Part shown: positions 4,609 through 44,486 of the stretch, piece by piece
How positions within the stretch are numbered: the stretch's first letter is position 1
Layout: every line of letters begins with the position of its first letter
Source of the DNA: a virus
IMG/VR virus record: IMGVR_UViG_3300047472_000051
Location: 1 to 45,910 of that record
Reading direction: 5' to 3' (one strand)
Length of the DNA: 45,910 nucleotides
The notes under the pieces: model-generated
What the model was told of the DNA's origin: nothing
The model's input: only the letters and a program-made list of their open reading frames with translations
Database searches by the model: none
Program-made: the position numbers and the translations under genes

Positions 4609-5193
4609 TTAAGTATCCGTTGCGAGGATACCTTCTGAAATTACAGTACTACCTACACGCATACGACCGTACAGCAGTGGTACTGGCCCACCTTGGTACG
4701 CCGTGTTCTCTGCACCACTGAAGTAGTAGGATGTCTTTGTTGCAGCGCTATTACTGTTACCGTTGGATGCCGCAGCGTGCGCAGAGAGCATCTGTGCAAC
4801 ACCACCGAAGACCATAGAAACACCAAGGCTGATAAGGGGAGTTCCCGCGCCACCGAAGTACGAAGTAACCGCGCCAGCGATAATAAGCACAACCCCTGCG
4901 ATAACGCTAAGGATGCCGCCGTTCTTCGCCCCTACCGGAATAGGAGCAACGCGAATATCATCGTTACCGCTGGGATACTCTAGTTCGCGCTCCGTAATGT
5001 TCCGCTTGCCGACAAAGACGGCGTACTTAATTCCGCGATCCTTGCTAGTCATTAACTCACGCTCAAATCCGGGAATCATAACGGCTAGTGCGCGCATAGC
5101 CTCCCGTGGAGACCTAACCACGAACCTATGCACACGGCCAAACTTAGCGCCCAATTTTCCATAGAGGCGAATCGTCCTCACTTTTTCTGACAC
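4609..5193 (-). CDS. I: Tail assembly protein I
   Basis: 194 residues, the usual size for lambda gpI. The N-terminal half is a ubiquitin-like fold (RLYGKLGAKFGR, then an acidic beta region). The middle holds two hydrophobic segments (about 95-135: VIAGVVLIIAGAV and LISLGVSMVFGGVA). The C-terminus has the GGPVPLLYGRMRVGS signature of the family. The start overlaps the end of K by 16 nt. GpI acts with K during assembly of the tail tip and is not a major virion part in lambda. Confidence 0.9.
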   Translation of the reverse strand: MSEKVRTIRLYGKLGAKFGRVHRFVVRSPREAMRALAVMIPGFERELMTSKDRGIKYAVFVGKRNITERELEYPSGNDDIRVAPIPVGAKNGGILSVIAGVVLIIAGAVTSYFGGAGTPLISLGVSMVFGGVAQMLSAHAAASNGNSNSAATKTSYYFSGAENTAYQGGPVPLLYGRMRVGSTVISEGILATDT

Positions 5194-7572: not shown

Positions 7573-7907
7573 GCGGAGAAAACCTCTGTAAAGTTAACGG
7601 TAAGCGTGTAGGAGTCTCCGCCGTGCGGCTGAATGGTCGGAGTGTCACAACGGAACAAACCTACCGACCTAAGCGGAGGCGTCCAGTTAAAGGACTGGAA
7701 ACCTTTGGTAGAATCTAGAAACGCTTTGATAGCGCTAATCTTTGCGCCGGAACCGGAGAAGGTAAGCGGGAAGGTGTCCATCTGGTTGTTAATTCCATCA
7801 GGGACACTTTGGGAGTAGCCGTCCCCGAATTGCGCTGTGCGTACTACATATTTCGTAGTGCCAACTATCTCCAAAGAGGGTTGCCACGTAAAAACGGGAG
7901 TGCTCAT
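7569..7907 (-). CDS. M: Minor tail protein M
   Basis: 112 residues, as in lambda gpM. The central pattern FGDGYSQSVPDGINNQ, with the C-terminal PxxxxxHGGDSYTLTVNFTEVF, is characteristic of the phage minor tail family. It joins the tape measure to the tail tip. Its ATG overlaps the stop of the upstream HNH gene (ATGA), so the homing gene was inserted without breaking translation coupling. Confidence 0.9.
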   Translation of the reverse strand: MSTPVFTWQPSLEIVGTTKYVVRTAQFGDGYSQSVPDGINNQMDTFPLTFSGSGAKISAIKAFLDSTKGFQSFNWTPPLRSVGLFRCDTPTIQPHGGDSYTLTVNFTEVFSA

Positions 7908-8392
7908 TCCGCGCCCCTATAGAATTCACCATGCAGTTCTTTACGCGCGGCGTCCGCTACTGCGAATGCTGCCTCTGGTGTGGAAAAGTACCCAAGTGAT
8001 TTTTCTTTCTTGTTTGGCGTCTGAATGCGCGCGTTCCATCGTCCACTACTCTTATGCAAGTACACACCCTTATACCCAGATGCACTACGAGCTACTGTGT
8101 TGTACCTATTCTGTACGCGCGTTGCGTTGCGTAGGTTTTCCCAGCGGTTATCCGAACGCTTTCGGTTCTCATGCTCACCGTCTGCCTCTGGAAAGGAACC
8201 CGTCATATAAAGAAAAGCTAGTCTATGTGCAGGGTAGCGCTCACCGTCTATTCCTATCTCTACATAGCCACATGAGATAGTACAACCCGCAACATCTCCT
8301 TTCTTTGCGCGGCCCTTATTTACGTTACGCACAAACAGACCTGTTAGCGGGTCATACGTCAATAATGCCTTAAGTCTGTCCTGCGTAAGCAT
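7904..8392 (-). CDS. HNH homing endonuclease with AP2-type DNA-binding domain
   Basis: 162 residues. The N-terminal part holds an HNH core (YPAHRLAFLYMTG, then GEHENRKRSDNRWENLR), where Glu-His replaces the commoner Asp-His. Residues 105-155 are an AP2 domain (GYKGVYLHKSSGRWNARI, then LGYFSTPEAAFAVADAARK). This is a free-standing homing endonuclease, a common selfish gene of phages. It lies between the tape measure and M, which are usually adjacent, so it is a clear insertion. Its target is expected to be the joined tape-measure/M sequence of related phages lacking it. Confidence 0.9.
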   Translation of the reverse strand: MLTQDRLKALLTYDPLTGLFVRNVNKGRAKKGDVAGCTISCGYVEIGIDGERYPAHRLAFLYMTGSFPEADGEHENRKRSDNRWENLRNATRVQNRYNTVARSASGYKGVYLHKSSGRWNARIQTPNKKEKSLGYFSTPEAAFAVADAARKELHGEFYRGAE

Positions 8393-21072: not shown

Positions 21073-21990
21073 TTATTCAGAAGTGCCCAGAATCCTCGCT
21101 AGCGGGTGCAAAGTCTTGCTTCCAATGATGCTCCAAAGTTGCTGCATAGATAATCCCTGAGCAAGCATCCGACATAATGCTTCGTATCTAAGATCGTTGA
21201 AATGTAAATCAGCAATCTTGGCGCGTTCCACAGTACGGATAAATGCTCGCTGTAATGCCATGGACGATACGCCGTCAAATACGAGACCATTAGCTTTAAT
21301 TCCTCTGTTCTTAAGGACTTCTAATAGTCGGTCTGAAATCGGGATTACACGAACGCCAGCCTTACCATTAACTCTGATTACCTTGTTATCTAGGTCCACA
21401 TCAGACCAGTCTAGTTTGATAATCTCATGCTGCATTAATGCTGTGTCTAACGCAATGATTATGGAGTCTCTAAGATAACCACCACGCGTATTAGCTGCTT
21501 CCGCTAACAGAGCTTGTTCCTCGTAATCAGGAATTCTACGTTCTCTAGTTTGGGTCTGCTTGGCGTAAGCTGCAACTACTGGATTACGGGTTAGGCGAAT
21601 ATCGAACTCCCTACGTGCGTACTCGATAGCAGCCTGTAGCGTTGCGGTGACTTCGTTAGGTTCTGCTGAGAACGCGGTAACATCCTCCGGCTGTATGTCC
21701 GTGATTATCATATTCCACAGGTTAGACTTAGCCATATCAGCTACAGGAAGTTGCACCTTATCCGGCATGCTCATTTTGTACATGGCTAGCAAGTCACCTA
21801 CGGACAGTAGCTCCGCAGCGTCCGTTAGTTGGTCCTGTCCTGCATCTAGGGAATTCTCCTTATCCTCGGCCCAAAGCTCCGCGTCTTCCTTAGTGTCGAA
21901 TGTGCGCGAGTACGTCGGGTGTCCCAATCGTCTAACCTTTGCCTGCCATTTTGAGCCGTGCTGGCTCTTGCGTTCGCTGATAGTCGCCAT
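21073..21990 (-). CDS. Catalytically dead tyrosine-recombinase-like protein, candidate immunity repressor
   Basis: 305 residues with the domain order of a tyrosine integrase: an arm-binding-type N-terminus (KWQAKVRRLGHPTYSRTFDT, about 14-33), a shortened core-binding region (about 60-145) and a recombinase fold (about 152-305). The active site is gone. The catalytic Arg in the usual TGLRxxE is Met186 (TALMQHE), the first His of HxxR is Asn265 (NDLR, with Arg268 kept), the His of GHKT is Ser291 (GSKT), and the Tyr is replaced by Ile300 (RILG). Lys210 remains. The rest of the fold is well kept, which speaks for selection on DNA binding. It is transcribed leftward, away from the early promoter at 22270, from its own promoter at 22015-22043, with AGGGAG before the ATG. 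No CI-like gene was seen elsewhere. I infer that it is the repressor; a decayed spare integrase is the alternative. Confidence 0.8.
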   Translation of the reverse strand: MATISERKSQHGSKWQAKVRRLGHPTYSRTFDTKEDAELWAEDKENSLDAGQDQLTDAAELLSVGDLLAMYKMSMPDKVQLPVADMAKSNLWNMIITDIQPEDVTAFSAEPNEVTATLQAAIEYARREFDIRLTRNPVVAAYAKQTQTRERRIPDYEEQALLAEAANTRGGYLRDSIIIALDTALMQHEIIKLDWSDVDLDNKVIRVNGKAGVRVIPISDRLLEVLKNRGIKANGLVFDGVSSMALQRAFIRTVERAKIADLHFNDLRYEALCRMLAQGLSMQQLWSIIGSKTLHPLARILGTSE

Positions 21991-22014
21991 AGTATTGTTC
22001 TCCCTGTTTGCAGC

Positions 22015-22176: not shown

Positions 22177-22180
22177 TTGT

Positions 22181-22206
22181 GTCCTGGACTCTACACTGTC
22201 CAGGAC
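22181..22206. promoter_or_regulatory. Operator-like palindrome D (perfect)
   Basis: GTCCTGGAC (22181-22189), 8-nt spacer, GTCCAGGAC (22198-22206): a perfect 9-bp inverted repeat with the same form as sites A, B and C. Its centre is 68 bp left of the centre of site B. Unlike the other three it does not overlap a good promoter, so it could serve co-operative binding or DNA looping with B. Confidence 0.75.
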
Positions 22207-22248: not shown

Positions 22249-22274
22249 GTCAGGGACAACACAAAGTCCTTGAC
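22249..22274. promoter_or_regulatory. Operator-like palindrome B at the early promoter
   Basis: Left arm GTCAGGGAC (22249-22257), 8-nt spacer, right arm GTCCTTGAC (22266-22274). The right arm overlaps TTGACA of the early rightward promoter, so binding would directly shut the early/replication operon. This is where a lambda-type operator would be expected to lie. Confidence 0.75.
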
Positions 22275-22298
22275 ACAACACAGCAAGACGCGTACATT
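22270..22298 (+). promoter_or_regulatory. Early rightward promoter overlapping operator B
   Basis: -35 TTGACA (22270-22275), 17-bp spacer, -10 TACATT (22293-22298). It points into the early operon, which starts with coding sequence at 22627. Host RNA polymerase should use it, as no phage factor exists at that time. The promoter is divergent to that of the dead-recombinase gene, the standard arrangement of a lysis-lysogeny switch. Confidence 0.75.
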
Positions 22299-22304
22299 TC
22301 GATC

Positions 22305-22626
22305 CATGCCAACGAATCACGAGAACGCCCGGTAAGCCAAGGCTGAAAGCGCGGTAAGGGTTCCAAAGGTAAGACGAAGTAGAAGCAAGAATTTTGAAGT
22401 ACCGCAGTAGCGACACGGTGACGGCATACCAGCCAGGCGCGTAAGTCCTAGTGATAGGCGAGAACTGGATAAATGATCGGAGACGCGGAGAGCAGTCCAA
22501 GGGGTAAGTTGCCTGCGGAAATCGATGCGTTGTTAGGGATAAAGAAAAACACACCCTAGCACGGACACTGTTCGTTAAGGAGACTGGGGCCAGCCTTCTT
22601 ACTCAACGGGACCGAGACTAAACAAA
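22305..22626 (+). other. Long untranslated early leader
   Basis: About 320 nt between the early promoter and the first gene, with stop codons in all frames. GGTAAG occurs four times (22331, 22353, 22368, 22503), and CGTAAG once (22440). It is purine-rich. It could be an antitermination (put/nut-like) or regulatory RNA leader; I recognised no boxA and no known RNA family. Confidence 0.45.
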
Positions 22627-22881
22627 ATGAGTAATGGAATTAAATTCAGGCTTGCACATACGGACGGAACTCAAGTCCAACCACTGTGGTTTGTGCTGGC
22701 CGTAATTCGGAAGCATGGCTTTAGGACGATTTGCCCTGTAGTTAGGAGCGGCCTAGCGGGTTCGTTCCTGCTTGCTACGCTGGTGTACATCGGAGGCGCT
22801 GCTGTGCGCCCGCTGTCCTTTATTAACCTCTGTGATGAGCTTGGGGAGGAGTGTACCAACACTGAACTTGTTCCCGCATGA
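22627..22881 (+). CDS. Small hypothetical protein, first early gene
   Basis: 84 residues, not recognised. The middle (about 43-64: GLAGSFLLATLVYIGGAAV) could be a membrane helix. The start has no clear ribosome binding site, and an antisense frame of similar length exists. It is kept because codon use looks like the neighbours and because it lies first behind the early promoter. Early phage genes at this place often attack host functions, but nothing here shows it. Confidence 0.45.
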   Translation: MSNGIKFRLAHTDGTQVQPLWFVLAVIRKHGFRTICPVVRSGLAGSFLLATLVYIGGAAVRPLSFINLCDELGEECTNTELVPA

Positions 22882-22971
22882 CTCGTTAGCACACCTGATA
22901 CATCCCCATTTACTAAGCCTGCTCACTACCTGACGCGGGCTTAATCGATCCCTAGATACTTAGGATAACCA

Positions 22972-23346
22972 ATGATTATTTACCGTGTTGAGACTGAGAG
23001 CGGCAAGGGTCCGTACGCTGGTGTTGAGATAGGCTATAGGTGTGGTTCGGTTCACTCCGCGCCTAGCCCTTACGAAGACTGCGAGCTTAGGCCGGAATGG
23101 TCGCACCTTGAGCGCAGCATGGAGCAAGAGAAGTTCTACTTTGGCTTCGCTACGGCACAGCTACTCCTAGACTGGTTCCACTCCAGTGAATTCCACAACG
23201 AAGCGCATGAGGCTGGATACCGCGTTAGCGTTGTAGAGGTTCTAGGCCGCGTCTTCCACGGTACGTATCAATCAATCTTCGAGCGCAGTAAATCGGTAGT
23301 AACGAAGCGCCTCACATTCAACGAAATTAAACAACTCGCCGTTTAG
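22972..23346 (+). CDS. Phage hypothetical protein
   Basis: 124 residues, with TTAGGA upstream of the ATG. It starts MIIYRVETESGKGPYAG and contains FGFATAQLLLDWFHSSEF, a pattern found in small phage proteins that act early and are unknown in function. No enzyme motif or membrane helix. The C-terminus is basic (RSKSVVTKRLTF). Confidence 0.75.
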   Translation: MIIYRVETESGKGPYAGVEIGYRCGSVHSAPSPYEDCELRPEWSHLERSMEQEKFYFGFATAQLLLDWFHSSEFHNEAHEAGYRVSVVEVLGRVFHGTYQSIFERSKSVVTKRLTFNEIKQLAV

Positions 23347-23354
23347 GACTACAC

Positions 23355-23567
23355 ATGAAAGCAACTAACTCCGCAGCAAACCTGTATGACGCTATCGGCG
23401 GCCTCGCAGCACACCAGGCGTTGCGTATCCGTCTTGGCTGGGAACCTGACCGCAAGCCTACGCCTAAGAACAACCCTGCAGGCTCTAAGCTCGCTCGCCA
23501 GATTAAGCGTGGTAACAAGGGTCTCACTTGCCGCAACGGTTCCCCGATCAATCAGAAGGCTGCCTAA
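23355..23567 (+). CDS. Small basic hypothetical protein
   Basis: 70 residues, strongly basic in the second half (KPTPKNN, KLARQIKRGNKG), which suggests nucleic-acid or ribosome binding. Start ATG with GGA upstream in the spacer after the previous stop. No family recognised. Confidence 0.65.
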   Translation: MKATNSAANLYDAIGGLAAHQALRIRLGWEPDRKPTPKNNPAGSKLARQIKRGNKGLTCRNGSPINQKAA

Positions 23568-23569
23568 CT

Positions 23570-23749
23570 ATGACCACGAACAACACCACAACCGCTACCA
23601 CCCCGAAGGTTCAACATGTCTTCGATGAGCTTCGCAAGCACGGCGTAGGCCAGTTCCTCCGCGCACACCCGGAAGCAGCCCGCGTAATGGCGCGTATGCG
23701 CAGCGACTCCAAGAGCTTCTTTAGCATTGCGGCACGGTTCCACGCATGA
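23570..23749 (+). CDS. Small hypothetical protein
   Basis: 59 residues from ATG 23570, two nt after the previous stop; an earlier in-frame start would overlap that gene. A Thr/Asn-rich start is followed by a helical segment VFDELRKHGVGQFLRAHPEAARVMARM. Function unknown. Its end overlaps the next ATG (ATGA). Confidence 0.6.
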   Translation: MTTNNTTTATTPKVQHVFDELRKHGVGQFLRAHPEAARVMARMRSDSKSFFSIAARFHA

Positions 23750-23931
23750 CACAGACGCAAGCATTTACATTGGCCCGCTCGCTGGGCCTTGAGCCTACGC
23801 TCCATGAAGCCTCCGGTACGTGGCAGGTAGACGGACACAGGATTGACCGTTGGCTAGTGCTGCGAAACTACCCGGACTCTAACTGCGTGCCTAACAGCAG
23901 CAACACATACATTCGTGGTTTTTACGCATGA
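23746..23931 (+). CDS. Small hypothetical protein
   Basis: 61 residues, linked to both neighbours by ATGA overlaps. Contains the segment GTWQVDGHRIDRWLVLRNY. No recognised motif. It belongs to the cluster of tiny early genes. Confidence 0.6.
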   Translation: MTQTQAFTLARSLGLEPTLHEASGTWQVDGHRIDRWLVLRNYPDSNCVPNSSNTYIRGFYA

Positions 23932-24098
23932 AGCAAAGCGCACAGTTCACGCCGCGCAAGATTAAGCGTGGTGGCAGGGAGTACAAGCGGCGCTATCAAT
24001 CCATAGTCGAATTGTATAGACCCACAATCGTAGATTGCTCTAACTGTGGTAGCCCAAGACACGGACACTATATATGCATCTACTGTGGCAAGGAGTAG
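23928..24098 (+). CDS. Ribosomal protein bL32-like zinc ribbon mini-protein
   Basis: 56 residues. A basic N-terminus (PRKIKRGGREYKRRYQS) is followed by CxxC-x9-CxxC (Cys37, 40, 50, 53; CSNCGSPRHGHYICIYCG). This is the build of zinc-type bacterial bL32: a basic Arg/Lys tail, CPxCG, a His three residues before the third Cys, then CxxCG, with the same spacing of 2, 9 and 2. The cellular protein has the same size (about 55-60). It might be built into host ribosomes or act as a mimic; a generic zinc ribbon remains possible. It overlaps the previous gene by 4 nt. It is below the usual length cut of gene finders. Confidence 0.7.
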   Translation: MKQSAQFTPRKIKRGGREYKRRYQSIVELYRPTIVDCSNCGSPRHGHYICIYCGKE

Positions 24099-24104
24099 CG
24101 CGGC

Positions 24105-24242
24105 ATGACCGGCGATAACGGAATCTACATCGGTGTACGCCATTGGACGCACGAGGCAGCATTGATTCGTGAGTTTCAGCGGTACTGGAATAAACAGCAG
24201 ATTGAGCGACTAAATAAGCGGAGAGAACATGGGCAAGTTTAA
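24105..24242 (+). CDS. Mini-protein of unknown function
   Basis: 45 residues, helical and charged (EAALIREFQRYWNKQQIERLNKRRE). It begins 6 nt after the previous stop and overlaps the next gene by 14 nt, so coupling is likely. The end of the gene supplies the GGAGAG ribosome binding site for the following gene. Not recognised. Confidence 0.5.
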   Translation: MTGDNGIYIGVRHWTHEAALIREFQRYWNKQQIERLNKRREHGQV

Positions 24243-24570
24243 GAAGGGCGATAAGGTACGCTGCGTAGTTGGTTTCGGCAAGTGCATCTCAGAGGGAACA
24301 GTGTACGAAGTACTTGAGGATACAGGCGAGTGGGTGCGCGTTGTGTCCGATGAAGGTATCCTAGGCGGCTACAAGCCATACCGATTCGAGCTTTTTTCTT
24401 CTTCCACCTACATCATCAACGGCGCACCCTACGAATACCCCACGCTAGCGGGTGCTGAAGCTGGCGTTAAGGCTATCGGGAACAACGGCGTTACATACGA
24501 GATTGCGCAGATTGTTAAGCGCGTTACCGTGAAGCGAGAGACTGTGGTTACGCTGGAGGAGACGGTATGA
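24229..24570 (+). CDS. KFKxGD-type small protein, paralogue 1
   Basis: 113 residues. Residues 1-60 form a small beta-barrel-like domain starting MGKFKKGDKVRCV, with EGTVYEVLED and KPYRFELF. Residues 61-113 are a second part, STYIINGAPYEYPTLAGAEA, that is also found in the next gene. Proteins starting KFKVGDxVR are SH3/KOW-like in appearance, but no function is known. This is the first of four tandem copies. Confidence 0.7.
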   Translation: MGKFKKGDKVRCVVGFGKCISEGTVYEVLEDTGEWVRVVSDEGILGGYKPYRFELFSSSTYIINGAPYEYPTLAGAEAGVKAIGNNGVTYEIAQIVKRVTVKRETVVTLEETV

Positions 24571-24959
24571 GCAAGTTTAAGGTAGGCGATAAGGTGCGTG
24601 CGATTGATGATGGTCCTGAGAATTGGGCAGGGCGTACTCATGCTATTAACGGGGCTGTCTACACCGTTGCACACGTTACCGAGAGTACGGGTAGCATTAA
24701 GCTTGCGGAGCTTCTTACAGGTAGTCCGGGGCATTGCCGCTTAGAATGGCGGTACGAGCTTGTAGCGCCCACCAACTCCTACACCGTCCATGACGAGACC
24801 TTTGGCGGTATCTACGAGTCGTTCTTCACCATCAACGAAGCCACGGAATACATTATGCAGCACGGTATCGCGGGCCACACGTACACCGTCCAGGAATACA
24901 TTGAACGCCGCCGTTTCGAAGTAGTCGAGAAGGTACAACGGGAATTGAAGGCTATCTAA
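24567..24959 (+). CDS. KFKxGD-type small protein, paralogue 2
   Basis: 130 residues. Same order as the preceding gene: MSKFKVGDKVRAID, then VYTVAHVTE and the second part NSYTVHDETFGGIYESFFTINEATEYIMQHG. Overlaps its upstream neighbour by ATGA and the downstream one by 1 nt (TAATG). It is the longest member of the array. Confidence 0.7.
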   Translation: MSKFKVGDKVRAIDDGPENWAGRTHAINGAVYTVAHVTESTGSIKLAELLTGSPGHCRLEWRYELVAPTNSYTVHDETFGGIYESFFTINEATEYIMQHGIAGHTYTVQEYIERRRFEVVEKVQRELKAI

Positions 24960-25186
24960 TGACCAAATTTAAAGTAGGCGATAGAGTGCGTGTGCGTGCG
25001 GATAAGAGTGCTCACGTAGCCACTGACCATGATTTCGGATGGGTTGAACGTATGGACCGCGTGCTAGGTACTGTGGGAGTAGTGGTTGCTACGTTCAGTC
25101 ATGGAGTAGAGGTAGAGTTCCCTGCTGGTTACATGTGGACGTATAACGAACTGTCTTTGGAGGCAACGTGCCCAAATTTAAAGTAG
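24959..25186 (+). CDS. KFKxGD-type small protein, paralogue 3
   Basis: 75 residues. Only the first domain is present: MTKFKVGDRVRVRAD, then GTVGVVVATFSHGVEVEF. The second part seen in paralogues 1 and 2 is missing, so it is a shortened copy. The end overlaps the next start by 19 nt. Confidence 0.7.
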   Translation: MTKFKVGDRVRVRADKSAHVATDHDFGWVERMDRVLGTVGVVVATFSHGVEVEFPAGYMWTYNELSLEATCPNLK

Positions 25187-25365
25187 GCGATTCGATTCGT
25201 TGCATGAAGCCCGCAACGTTCCTTGCTATCAAATCAGGGCAGCGCTATACGGTGTCAAAGCTGGGTGCTATCAGCAATGACGAAGACATGGAATACGTTC
25301 AGCTTGCGGAGCTTCCCGGCCGCGCGTTCAAGGCCGACAGATTCATGCTGTGTACGAACAAATAG
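25168..25365 (+). CDS. KFKxGD-type small protein, paralogue 4
   Basis: 65 residues with GTG start at 25168; TTTGGAGG lies about 7 nt upstream, which decides the start. MPKFKVGDSIRCMK followed by GQRYTVSKLG and FKADRFMLC shows the same one-domain build. The last of the array. Confidence 0.7.
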   Translation: MPKFKVGDSIRCMKPATFLAIKSGQRYTVSKLGAISNDEDMEYVQLAELPGRAFKADRFMLCTNK

Positions 25366-25604
25366 CCGTAAGCGTACTGGGTGTTCTCTGCGTATATCTA
25401 AGCCAGCACAGCAAGGACAGCGTTAGACGCTACGCGTGCGTCCTAGGTGTCCTGAGTCAACCCCTGTGGTTGCATATCTCCTGGCAGTCTGCACAGTACG
25501 GAGTGTTCACGCTGTGCGTTGTGTATATGGCTGTATGGCTGCAGGCATTCTATAAACATTGGATTAAACCTCTCAATCTATTTAGGAGTACAAAGCATGG
25601 CTAA
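25350..25604 (+). CDS. Small membrane protein
   Basis: 84 residues with GTG start, overlapping paralogue 4 by 16 nt. Two hydrophobic segments (about 5-20 AVSVLGVLCVYL and 45-66 WQSAQYGVFTLCVVYMAVWLQ) suggest two membrane spans. There is no own ribosome binding site of note, so coupling is likely. Function unknown. Confidence 0.6.
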   Translation: MYEQIAVSVLGVLCVYLSQHSKDSVRRYACVLGVLSQPLWLHISWQSAQYGVFTLCVVYMAVWLQAFYKHWIKPLNLFRSTKHG

Positions 25605-25953
25605 AATTACTATCGCTTCCCTTAAGGCGCGCATCGCAGCCGATACCGCCAAGCTTGCAGAGTTGGAAGCCGTAGCCGCAGCAGGTAACGCTATGGCTAA
25701 TCTTGCAAGTGGTGACGTGATCGAATTCATGTTTGGTCGTGGCGAGACGCGTAAGCAGCGGGCAGGCGTTGTGCTTGGTATCGCGGAGACGGATAAAGGT
25801 AAGCGTATCAAGCTGCAGGTAGGCGAGGGATTCGATGCTGAGATTCTGGTTATCACGTCGGATGCAATCGTTGCGGTTGCGGAGGATGCTACACAAGCCG
25901 GTGCGGTAGACTCTACGGCGGCCTCTGCGGACCCGCTGGCTAGCCTGTCATGA
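25597..25953 (+). CDS. Hypothetical protein with helical N-terminus
   Basis: 118 residues from ATG 25597 with TTTAGGAG upstream; a longer in-frame reading would overlap the preceding gene. The start MAKITIASLKARIAADTAKLAELEAVAAA is a short coiled coil. A beta domain (about 38-95) with SGDVIEFMFGRGETRKQRAG and AGVVLGI follows, and then an Ala/Asp/Ser-rich tail. Frequently seen in T7-like relatives as an unknown protein, to my recollection. Not assigned. Confidence 0.7.
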   Translation: MAKITIASLKARIAADTAKLAELEAVAAAGNAMANLASGDVIEFMFGRGETRKQRAGVVLGIAETDKGKRIKLQVGEGFDAEILVITSDAIVAVAEDATQAGAVDSTAASADPLASLS

Positions 25954-26117
25954 ACGTATGCCTGCACAAAGCTGACTTCTCTACTGAAACTTTCCTAGAC
26001 GTTAGAGAGGTCAAACACTGCATGAGCCGGTTTAGTGAGGATGAGGTAGTACTAGTTAATGACGAGTATGACGAGGAGCGCTACACGGGCGTTATAAGTA
26101 TCACTATCAACGTCTAG
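25950..26117 (+). CDS. Small acidic mini-protein
   Basis: 55 residues, strongly acidic (SEDEVVLVNDEYDEERY), with ATGA overlap to the gene before. An acidic mini-protein in the early region could be a DNA mimic inhibitor, but this is speculation from composition. The stop overlaps the ribosome binding site AGGAG of the primase. Confidence 0.55.
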   Translation: MNVCLHKADFSTETFLDVREVKHCMSRFSEDEVVLVNDEYDEERYTGVISITINV

Positions 26118-26125
26118 GAGAATTC

Positions 26126-26947
26126 GTGAGCGATAAAGCATGGCTAGTATCTGCACAATCGCTCCCGGAAGGCAGTACGCGCAAAATAGGCCATGACTGC
26201 GGGGCGGGAGACTGCCTCCAGATTAACCACAAGCGCGACGGCTGGGGCGCGTACTGCCATCGGTGTTCATACAAGGGATTCGTACCGCGCCCTGCGGAGA
26301 CACTGACAGAGAAGCTAGAACGATTGAAGCGGATACAGACCGCTGAGCGGGACGCTTGCTTTAGTCCTAGCCTGCCTATGCCCGCAGAATACCAGCCCTC
26401 CCTGTGGCCGCTGGCGGCGCGTGTGTGGCTTTACAAGGCGGGGATGTCCAACGTTGAGATACAGCATCTTGGGTATTACTGGAATGCGCGGATACAGCGC
26501 GTGGTTATGCCTATCCGGGATGCTGCAGGAACGCTGCTGTATTGGCAAGCTCGGACGCTGGATAAGACCAACCCGACCAAGTATATTAATCAGAAGGGAG
26601 TGGACAAGCACAGCTTCATAGCGAGGTACGGCGCGGGGCCAATAGTAGTACTAACGGAGGATATTCTCAGCGCCTATAAGGTATCGCGCGCGGGTGTTGA
26701 GGCTATGCCCCTAATGGGAACCAAGCTAAGCACAACGGTAGCCGCTGAGATTGTGCGGGACGGTAGGCCGGTAGCGTGCTGGTTAGACCCAGACGTAGCG
26801 GGTAGAACTGCAGCCGCGAAAGTATGCAAGACCTTACGCGCTTACGGCGTGAAGGTTACGAATGTTATCTCTGACAGAGACCCTAAGTTACTCTCACGTG
26901 AGGAAATCATATGCGCCCTACGCGCCCAAGTATCTCCGAATTGGTAG
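26126..26947 (+). CDS. DNA primase, T7-type with zinc-binding and TOPRIM domains
   Basis: 273 residues, GTG start with AGGAG 7 nt upstream. The N-terminal zinc-binding motif has Cys25, Cys30, Cys44 and Cys47 (HDCGAGDC, YCHRCSYKG). The TOPRIM fold follows, with the Glu in VVLTEDILSAYKV and the DxD in CWLDPDVAG. In T7 the primase is fused to the helicase (gp4); here the helicase is a separate gene at 28032, so the two must associate in trans. It makes primers for lagging-strand synthesis. Confidence 0.92.
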   Translation: MSDKAWLVSAQSLPEGSTRKIGHDCGAGDCLQINHKRDGWGAYCHRCSYKGFVPRPAETLTEKLERLKRIQTAERDACFSPSLPMPAEYQPSLWPLAARVWLYKAGMSNVEIQHLGYYWNARIQRVVMPIRDAAGTLLYWQARTLDKTNPTKYINQKGVDKHSFIARYGAGPIVVLTEDILSAYKVSRAGVEAMPLMGTKLSTTVAAEIVRDGRPVACWLDPDVAGRTAAAKVCKTLRAYGVKVTNVISDRDPKLLSREEIICALRAQVSPNW

Positions 26948-41984: not shown

Positions 41985-42010
41985 GTACGGGACATGAGAT
42001 AGTCCTTGAC
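41985..42010. promoter_or_regulatory. Operator-like palindrome C
   Basis: Left arm GTACGGGAC (41985-41993, identical to that of site A), 8-nt spacer, right arm GTCCTTGAC (42002-42010, identical to that of site B). The right arm supplies TTGAC of the plus-strand -35 box. It lies between the minus-strand endolysin (start 41963) and the plus-strand accessory operon (start 42041), so it could control both. Confidence 0.75.
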
Positions 42011-42034
42011 ACAGTGCAGCGTGGCGAATAATCT
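42006..42034 (+). promoter_or_regulatory. Sigma70-type promoter overlapping operator C
   Basis: TTGACA (42006-42011), 17-bp spacer, TAATCT (42029-42034). This is the best consensus match of the three. The predicted start point, 6-7 nt after the -10, falls on the A of the ATG at 42041, so the first gene would have a leaderless mRNA, like lambda cI from PRM. Confidence 0.75.
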
Positions 42035-42739: not shown

Positions 42740-43123
42740 ATGTCCAAGCTACTCGCAACGTTGGTGTTACTTGCTGTGAGCACCGCTGCACACGCACAGG
42801 CGTTACCTGCAGACGTAGCCGCGACATATCAGCAGCAGGCAGACGCCTCGTACACCATCGCAATGCGCGGATGCTCAATGATGGGCATGTTTCCGTCTCG
42901 CCAGGCTAGCTGTGAAGCAGCAGCGCTCCGGGACAGAGATACGTATATGTTGAGAGCGGCTAGCCTATATTGGTCGGTGGTCGTGCGGGATGACGCTAGG
43001 AAGCAGTTTAATACAGCCGCAGCGAACTGCAGGAAGACCAACGGAGACACTTGCTTAGACAGCCTGCAAAGCGCCTCCGAGGATTATTACCGTGCGGACG
43101 TAGACGTTAGGCGGGCACAATAA
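42740..43123 (+). CDS. Secreted periplasmic protein
   Basis: 127 residues with a clear signal peptide (LLATLVLLAVSTAAHA, cut before QA). The mature part is helical with several cysteines that could form disulfides (GCSMMG, ASCEAAA, NCRKTNGDTCL). GGAG upstream. No known family. Like the gene at 321 it is a secreted protein under a promoter of the same type. The end overlaps the convergent integrase gene by 17 nt. Confidence 0.7.
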   Translation: MSKLLATLVLLAVSTAAHAQALPADVAATYQQQADASYTIAMRGCSMMGMFPSRQASCEAAALRDRDTYMLRAASLYWSVVVRDDARKQFNTAAANCRKTNGDTCLDSLQSASEDYYRADVDVRRAQ

Positions 43124-44486
43124 CACCGTGTATCTCGTATTTATCCATGGCTTCCACTAGCGGCCTAAGCGGATAAAATCCCGCTCCATAATTACGAGAT
43201 ACGCTCCCGCTAGAGTGCCCGGATAGCGCGTCTGATACTTCCTCAGCTACTCCTACCTCGCGCATATAATCCTTAAAGCAATGGCGGAAACTGTGGAACG
43301 CCTTCCGGCTATCCGTTACACCAGCCTTGCGCTTAAGCGTAGAGAATCTAGAACTAAACGAAGCTGTCTTACGCCCGTTCTTACCCGGCTTTAACTCCGG
43401 GAATAACTGAGCACCTTTCTGTGTGCGTACGTAATCTATAAACCCTATCTCTATCAGAGTCTTGTGTACAGGGACACGCCTACGGCTAGATGCAGTCTTC
43501 AGGCTCTTTCCTTCACCCTCCTCTGTGGCATAGATAACGTGTACCTTGTGCTCCTTACCAGCAACATCCCGGTAACTCTCCTGCACAACATCACTAGGCG
43601 CTAACTGCCCAATCTCCTCTAGCCTTAATCCGGTATATAGCCCGATTACAGGCAGCCAGTATTTAGCCCCAGTCTTGGGCAAACTCCCAAATATCTTGTT
43701 TATCTCGTCAACCGTAAAAGGTAAGCGAGCAGTCTTAGCGCTTTTCTGTCCCGAAGTCTTAACGCCAGTAACCGGGTTAGACTTAATCCAGCCCTCATTT
43801 ACCGTTACGCCTAGAACAGCGCTCATGATGGCTAGATAATTCTTAATCGTACCGGGCTGCTTTCCGTCGGCTTTAAGTGCGGTCTGAAACTGTACGATAT
43901 GCTCACGCTGTATTTTCCGAAGGGGTAGCTTGCCGCACACTTCCCAGAATCGATGCACCACGTTATGCGCGGTAGCAATGATCGAACCACCTGGGCTACG
44001 CTCTGTTTCCCACTTACGCAAGGCCTCTGCCAGCCCTACAGCGTCCCGCACGGATACGGCTGGTGCATGGGTAGCCACTTCAGTAACGAAGGGCACCACG
44101 GGGCTATACGCGACTCCGCCTAACACGTCCCGGATAGTCTTGTCAAGACCCACCATGAAATGAGATAAAGCAGCCTCATTACGAACTGCTTCTATGTCGT
44201 CCCGTAGCTCATTGTCGTCTGGGTCGCCGTGTTCATCCTCATGCATCCCCGTCCAATCCTGTCTAGACCCAGCGGAGACCTTCACCACCTCTCTAGCGCG
44301 AGTCACGGCAAACAGTTCATCTATCTGTACAGCCACCTTGCGGGCCAGCACAGCAGCCTCTTTAGGGTCGCTGGTATTTAGTGCCCTCTGGATTTCCTTC
44401 TTACCTTCAAGGAACGGTACTAAGTCAGTAGGAACCCTACGCCTGTAGTAATACCGTGCACCGCGTCTTACGAGATGTTCGCTCAT
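43107..44486 (-). CDS. int: Tyrosine integrase, active type
   Basis: 459 residues. N-terminal DUF6538-like part (LVRRGARYYYRRRVPTDL), core-binding domain at about 145-240, catalytic domain at 250-445. All key residues are there: Arg288 (TGLRLEE), Lys near 330, His398 and Arg401 (FHSFR), His424 (SGHS) and Tyr433 (RNYG). It would integrate and excise the prophage. The non-coding DNA upstream (44487-44675) is the likely attP place. No excisionase was recognised. In contrast to the protein at 21073 it is intact. Confidence 0.95.
   Translation of the reverse strand: MSEHLVRRGARYYYRRRVPTDLVPFLEGKKEIQRALNTSDPKEAAVLARKVAVQIDELFAVTRAREVVKVSAGSRQDWTGMHEDEHGDPDDNELRDDIEAVRNEAALSHFMVGLDKTIRDVLGGVAYSPVVPFVTEVATHAPAVSVRDAVGLAEALRKWETERSPGGSIIATAHNVVHRFWEVCGKLPLRKIQREHIVQFQTALKADGKQPGTIKNYLAIMSAVLGVTVNEGWIKSNPVTGVKTSGQKSAKTARLPFTVDEINKIFGSLPKTGAKYWLPVIGLYTGLRLEEIGQLAPSDVVQESYRDVAGKEHKVHVIYATEEGEGKSLKTASSRRRVPVHKTLIEIGFIDYVRTQKGAQLFPELKPGKNGRKTASFSSRFSTLKRKAGVTDSRKAFHSFRHCFKDYMREVGVAEEVSDALSGHSSGSVSRNYGAGFYPLRPLVEAMDKYEIHGVIVPA

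Follow-up and report, generated by a model that had tools for sequence, protein, structure and literature searches.

A small phage zinc-ribbon protein family that resembles ribosomal protein bL32

A gene for a 56-residue zinc-ribbon protein was characterised in a 45.9-kb viral contig (IMG/VR record IMGVR_UViG_3300047472_000051, analysed over its whole 45,910 nucleotides and referred to here as the window). Two curated models would name the product ribosomal protein L32 by score alone, and this annotation is corrected here: the gene belongs to a small family of mobile phage genes that has a clear signature of its own and is absent from PHROGs. With a probability of roughly 55%, the product is read as a small mobile accessory protein of phages that would bind zinc and nucleic acid and modulate gene expression, and whose likeness to bL32 comes from its fold together with distant descent or convergence.

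The zinc-ribbon gene, its phage and its relatives

The ORF (P0001) runs from ATG to TAG at positions 23928–24098 (+) and encodes the product MKQSAQFTPRKIKRGGREYKRRYQSIVELYRPTIVDCSNCGSPRHGHYICIYCGKE; its assignment draws on Pfam and NCBIfam scores, a codon-position test and a family alignment. The sequence-only reading had called a 56-residue ORF with exactly these boundaries, which proved real, and the features singled out there were all found, namely C37-x2-C40-x9-C50-x2-C53, Gly41, Gly54, His47 three residues before C50 and a basic N terminus. The basic segment covers residues 8–31 (23949–24020, +), with an N-terminal net charge of +7, and is followed by Pro32 (24021–24023, +), five residues ahead of the first cysteine, and by the ribbon C37-S-N-C-G-S-P-R-H-G-H-Y-I-C-I-Y-C-G54 (24036–24089, +), as read from the translation and the alignment. 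AlphaFold models built from two and from four sequences were of low confidence (mean pLDDT 57 and 61); they show a helix from residue 17, spanning residues 17–29, without a resolved ribbon, and a Foldseek search with such a model returned a single match at E 9.

The start codon overlaps the stop of an upstream 61-aa ORF (23746–23931, +; matched to PHROG 31385) in the sequence ATGA (23928–23931, +), which points to a tight operon, and the zinc-ribbon ORF is likely to be translationally coupled to its neighbour through this overlap. It is one of a series of small ORFs on this strand, the next of which encodes 45 residues (24105–24242, +) without a family match in Pfam or PHROGs. Four tandem ORFs at 24229–25365 (+) share the opening xKFKxGDxxR and have the appearance of paralogues; one of them matches an SH3-like Pfam family. 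A 25-nt direct repeat (84%) was also seen between 23496–23520 and 23955–23979; the first copy encodes QIKRG in an upstream ORF, the second KIKRG within the zinc-ribbon ORF, and chance or recombination could account for it.

The left half of the contig carries, on the minus strand, an HK97/HK022-like structural module with a large terminase 60% identical to that of HK022 and with portal, capsid, tape measure and tail fibre J. The right half, on the plus strand, holds a T7-like replication set of single-subunit RNA polymerase, primase, helicase, DNA polymerase, ligase and exonuclease. With two integrases in addition (21073–21990 and 43107–44486, both −), the phage looks like a temperate hybrid of HK97-type structural genes and a T7-like RNA polymerase and replisome. 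No DNA similarity to public phages was found for positions 22000–45910 (near mode) or 22500–26200 (distant mode), and no tRNA genes were found in the window. The window RNA polymerase was only 30–44% identical to the matches used for host assignment.

Five relatives of the window protein were found. Searches by tblastn gave homologues in Burkholderia phage vB_BpP_HN02 (Schitoviridae; HN02 below) and on plasmid pBVIE05 of Burkholderia vietnamiensis G4. This plasmid bears RepB, lysis-type genes and a phage repressor gene, and most likely represents a phage-plasmid. Three metagenomic contigs (L010, L260 and L262) yielded homologues in pattern scans of IMG/VR. A single-protein search of viral contigs gave no relatives, and looser cysteine patterns run against genomes and viral contigs matched PriA and other zinc ribbons, which were rejected. 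Further weak tblastn matches in Streptomyces, Lactococcus and Vibrio phages, among others, were not counted as family. The sequence-only reading had suggested that the gene could be widely overlooked; across all collections searched, the family came to six members of 48–88 aa, so this part of the sequence-only reading was not borne out.

A chance ORF without function was weighed, given the shortness of the frame and the many spurious entries in mechanical ORF lists. Against this stand the five homologues, which are 38–57% identical and carry gene annotations in two public records, and the pattern of their differences. Differences at the three codon positions numbered 14/15/31 between the window and its L010 homologue (46 codons), 5/4/19 between pBVIE05 and L260, and 5/4/11 between L262 and L260; comparisons with HN02 were near saturation and gave no clear third-position excess. 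The excess among the other members argues that the ORF is a real gene under purifying selection, and the chance reading, of negligible probability, is ruled out by this conservation pattern.

Resemblance to bL32 and its limits

A profile search against bL32 placed the window protein where the sequence-only reading had expected it, with Ribosomal_L32p (PF01783) as its best Pfam family at 30.3 bits, above the cut-off of 21.3 (E 4.8e-7). NCBIfam rpmF (TIGR01031) was likewise passed, at 27.5 bits with a cut-off of 22.6, and the best match among PDB sequences was Listeria bL32 (E 5e-6); a PHROGs search gave no match below E 5. Taken with a stretch in common, P-x-[IL]-V-[DE]-C-x-N-C-G, and with the virus-encoded ribosomal proteins described in a survey (PMC6375957), these scores favour a phage homologue that would replace host bL32 in 50S subunits and so alter translation. 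We consider such a replacement very unlikely, since genuine bL32 scores in another range, the relatives fall below the bL32 cut-offs and the N-terminal motif and C-terminal tail of bL32 are absent, as set out below.

Cellular bL32 proteins in the sampled genomes scored 56.9–107 bits on the Pfam model, the one exception being the second bL32 of a Streptomyces genome, which is partial and zinc-free (42.8 bits). On a profile of our own, built from 68 zinc-type sequences, genuine zinc-type bL32 reached at least 84.8 bits (median 101.8), whereas the window protein reached 30.7 and its relatives on L010, pBVIE05 and HN02 reached 16.0, 12.4 and 12.0. The 30.7 bits exceeded the score of every viral zinc ribbon of the same spacing that is not bL32 (maximum 26.2 bits), and 26 of 95 same-spacing segments scored at least 20 bits, one of these being a real bL32 that was set aside (83.9 bits). 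The ribbon alone contributed 17.0 bits and the N terminus alone 0.6; when the N terminus was shuffled the mean score was 20.2 bits and none of 1000 shuffles reached 30.7, so the N-terminal half does add to the bL32 score. The window protein is above the decoys yet far from genuine bL32.

The spacing CxxC-x9-CxxC, which had been read as that of zinc-type bL32, is present in the protein but is common to many unrelated zinc ribbons. PF01783 also attracts such ribbons: 7 of 50 unrelated ones with the same spacing matched it at E ≤ 0.0035, the best at E 4.6e-5 (compared with 4.8e-7 for the window protein). When viral contigs were scanned for the exact signature CxxCG-x5-H-xx-CxxCG, at least 120 stretches were found, and among the matches listed one real bL32 was recognised, within flanking bacterial DNA. 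This genuine bL32, at positions 5024–5076 of viral contig IMGVR_UViG_3300033817_000045, is encoded in a bacterial typA-DUF177-rpmF-fabH stretch next to an integrase-like ORF and is therefore flanking host DNA. Records MT837278, MT835512 and MT835759 were rejected as phage homologues because they carry bacterial DUF177-rpmF DNA; being filed as phage, they give false matches to a 'phage bL32'.

The six members align without gaps from a K-I motif to the stop codon. In window numbering, I12, Y19, P32, C37, C40, G41, R44, H45, C50, C53 and E56 are invariant and position 48 is Tyr or Phe throughout, which gives the family signature I......Y...P..C..CG..RH..[YF].C..C..E-stop, with C..CG..RH..[YF].C..C as its ribbon part. 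At the histidine position of bL32 the members have H, N, Q, Q, Q and N, so that this residue, found in 68 of 68 zinc-type bL32s, is kept in the window protein only. Conversely, the Arg-His pair of all six members was found in none of the 68 bL32s, and an aromatic residue at the position of Tyr48 in two. Gly54 is replaced by Glu in three members. The chain extends for at least nine residues past the last cysteine in the 68 zinc-type bL32s, compared with three in the phage proteins, so the C-terminal bL32 tail with its Tyr is missing from the family. The N-terminal bL32 motif (A-V-P-K-R-K... R-R-[ST]-H), loose forms of which occur in 64 and 62 of the 68 bL32s, is absent from the six-member alignment. 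The N terminus is basic in five of the six (L260, L262 and pBVIE05 by direct reading), at +8 for L010 (+3 in its aligned 28 residues) and −1 for HN02.

The relatives also fell below the cut-off of 21.3 on the Pfam bL32 model (L260 18.7, L010 18.4, pBVIE05 18.0, L262 13.8 and HN02 without a score), and all five were below that of NCBIfam rpmF. As an identification of bL32, the sequence-only reading is favoured for the window protein by both cut-offs but not for the five relatives, in which the bL32 histidine is lost; its support is partial and confined to sequence resemblance.

Whether the family might nonetheless descend from bL32 was considered through the recurrence of bL32 as the best or near-best family. 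In Pfam, bL32 ranks first for four of the six members, the proline at −5 is kept in 6/6 members and in 45 of 68 bL32s, and an earlier three-member profile searched against 398 Pseudomonadota genomes gave three matches at E ≤ 0.001, all of them bL32, with bL32s recurring among the weaker matches. As the best matches were all bL32, a real distant link is possible, and a common distant origin of the family and bL32 is possible from these comparisons. In the reverse direction, the family profile failed to tell bL32 apart from decoys (median scores of 8.7 and 6.2; p = 0.07 by Mann-Whitney test), and its top matches were decoys. Profile-profile comparison with bL32 gave 50.2 for the window protein alone and 37.7 for the family, lower than eight single-decoy scores of at least 40. 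Against PDB sequences, the eIF2-beta zinc ribbon (E 0.017) was level with bL32 (E 0.026). These results, the unrelated ribbons drawn by PF01783 and a sequence too short for a reliable tree weigh against an ancient derivative of cellular zinc-type bL32 repurposed for a non-ribosomal job, which is regarded as a possible but rather unlikely origin.

Host proteins bear on the same question. All 29 parsed Burkholderiales bL32s (30 loci fetched) were without cysteines, and Burkholderia is the host for two of the six family members; a zinc-type protein would therefore be neither a copy of the host bL32 nor a like-for-like replacement there. This argument is drawn from Burkholderiales and is indirect for the window. 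A zinc-type bL32 derivative could in principle enter the 50S subunits of hosts with zinc-free bL32 and produce a chemically different ribosome, an idea to which we give even less credence than to replacement. The likeness to bL32 is no evidence for replacement of bL32 in ribosomes, and a change of host ribosomes by the window protein, as the sequence-only reading had envisaged, is not favoured. If true, the ribosomal reading would add bL32 to the ribosomal proteins carried by phages.

Mobility, expression and probable role

An all-against-all protein comparison showed that L260, L262 and pBVIE05 form one syntenic lineage. The zinc-ribbon gene is the sole convincing gene that the window has in common with L260, L262, pBVIE05 and the L010/L011 contig, as judged from the stretches fetched; with HN02 the window shares only the zinc-ribbon gene, a gene for an HNH endonuclease and a weak match to a polymerase. 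The family is rare, yet it is carried by at least four phage or phage-plasmid backbones that are otherwise unrelated, and 'mobile accessory gene' is the best name for it. The HNH gene of HN02 (ORF28) is found two genes upstream of its zinc-ribbon gene; the window HNH endonuclease (7904–8392, −) is 35% identical to ORF28.

A candidate early promoter, TTGACA-17-TACATT (22270–22298, +), lies about 1.6 kb upstream of the zinc-ribbon ORF on the same strand; it is a consensus match only, and promoter-type matches in the whole region were no more numerous than in shuffles. It is overlapped by one copy of an operator-like repeat, GGGACA-N6-AGTCC (combined span 22253–22298). Together with TTGACA, this repeat occurs four times in the window (22253–22275, +; 41989–42011, +; 182–204, +; 22180–22202, −), compared with 0.06 expected by chance at up to 3 mismatches, and two of the four copies are exact and overlap −35 boxes. 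The repeats are likely to be repressor operators at two promoters. The candidate promoter and its overlapping repeat make early transcription of the zinc-ribbon gene, and with it early expression in the window phage, plausible. A 300-nt leader ahead of the early genes matched no Rfam family and folded no better than shuffles. In the pBVIE05 lineage the zinc-ribbon gene lies upstream of an adjoining portal-like gene (judged by eye, not by profile), from which it follows that expression timing probably differs between lineages; early expression is probably not a trait of the whole family.

The preferred reading, a nucleic-acid-binding accessory protein, takes the basic and probably helical N terminus to lead into a single zinc ribbon of four cysteines, with which the protein ends. 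The four cysteines would bind one zinc ion, and ribbon and basic helix would together hold RNA or another nucleic-acid-containing target of host or phage; both kinds of binding are suggested by the four cysteines and the basic N terminus only. Gene expression during infection would then be modulated in much the way that Mu Com acts on mom mRNA. The ribbon could instead bind a protein, for example a defence factor or the host RNA polymerase, making the product a host-takeover protein. The gene is small and mobile and lies in a run of small uncharacterised ORFs in both the window and HN02, and small phage zinc-ribbon families do exist in Pfam, namely Lar restriction alleviation and Ogr/Delta, each of which was matched by one decoy. 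The window protein matches neither family, however, and its basic charge suits nucleic acid better, so that a protein target is held to be possible but doubtful. For the accessory protein preferred here, the likeness to bL32 would reflect a common zinc-ribbon fold together with either very distant descent or convergence.

Comparison with known systems

Zinc-type bL32 (PF01783, TIGR01031) is like the window protein in size, basic N terminus, CxxC-x9-CxxC spacing and the proline five residues before the first cysteine. It differs in that the phage family has R-H in 6/6 members (0/68 in bL32), keeps the bL32 histidine in 1/6, has lost the second glycine in three, stops three residues past the last cysteine and is without the N-terminal motif. 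Phage-encoded bS21, bL12, bL31, bL33 and others are known, some of them shown to enter ribosomes, as described in a survey of virus ribosomal proteins (PMC6375957) and of a jumbo cyanophage paper (PMC13157829), neither of which mentions L32 in its main text. Those proteins are copies of small ribosomal proteins, whereas the window protein appears only to resemble one.

PhiKZ014, an early jumbo-phage protein that binds 5S rRNA and the large ribosomal subunit (PMC10914614), offers an earlier example of a phage protein made early that has the large subunit as its target; unlike the window protein, it comes from a jumbo phage. Com of bacteriophage Mu is a 62-aa phage protein with one four-cysteine zinc finger and a non-globular remainder, which binds mRNA and controls translation (PMC6483171). 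Its zinc finger is N-terminal, whereas the ribbon of the window protein is C-terminal, and no sequence relation is claimed; both are small phage proteins with a single four-cysteine zinc element, and by analogy Com may provide a model for the action of the window protein.
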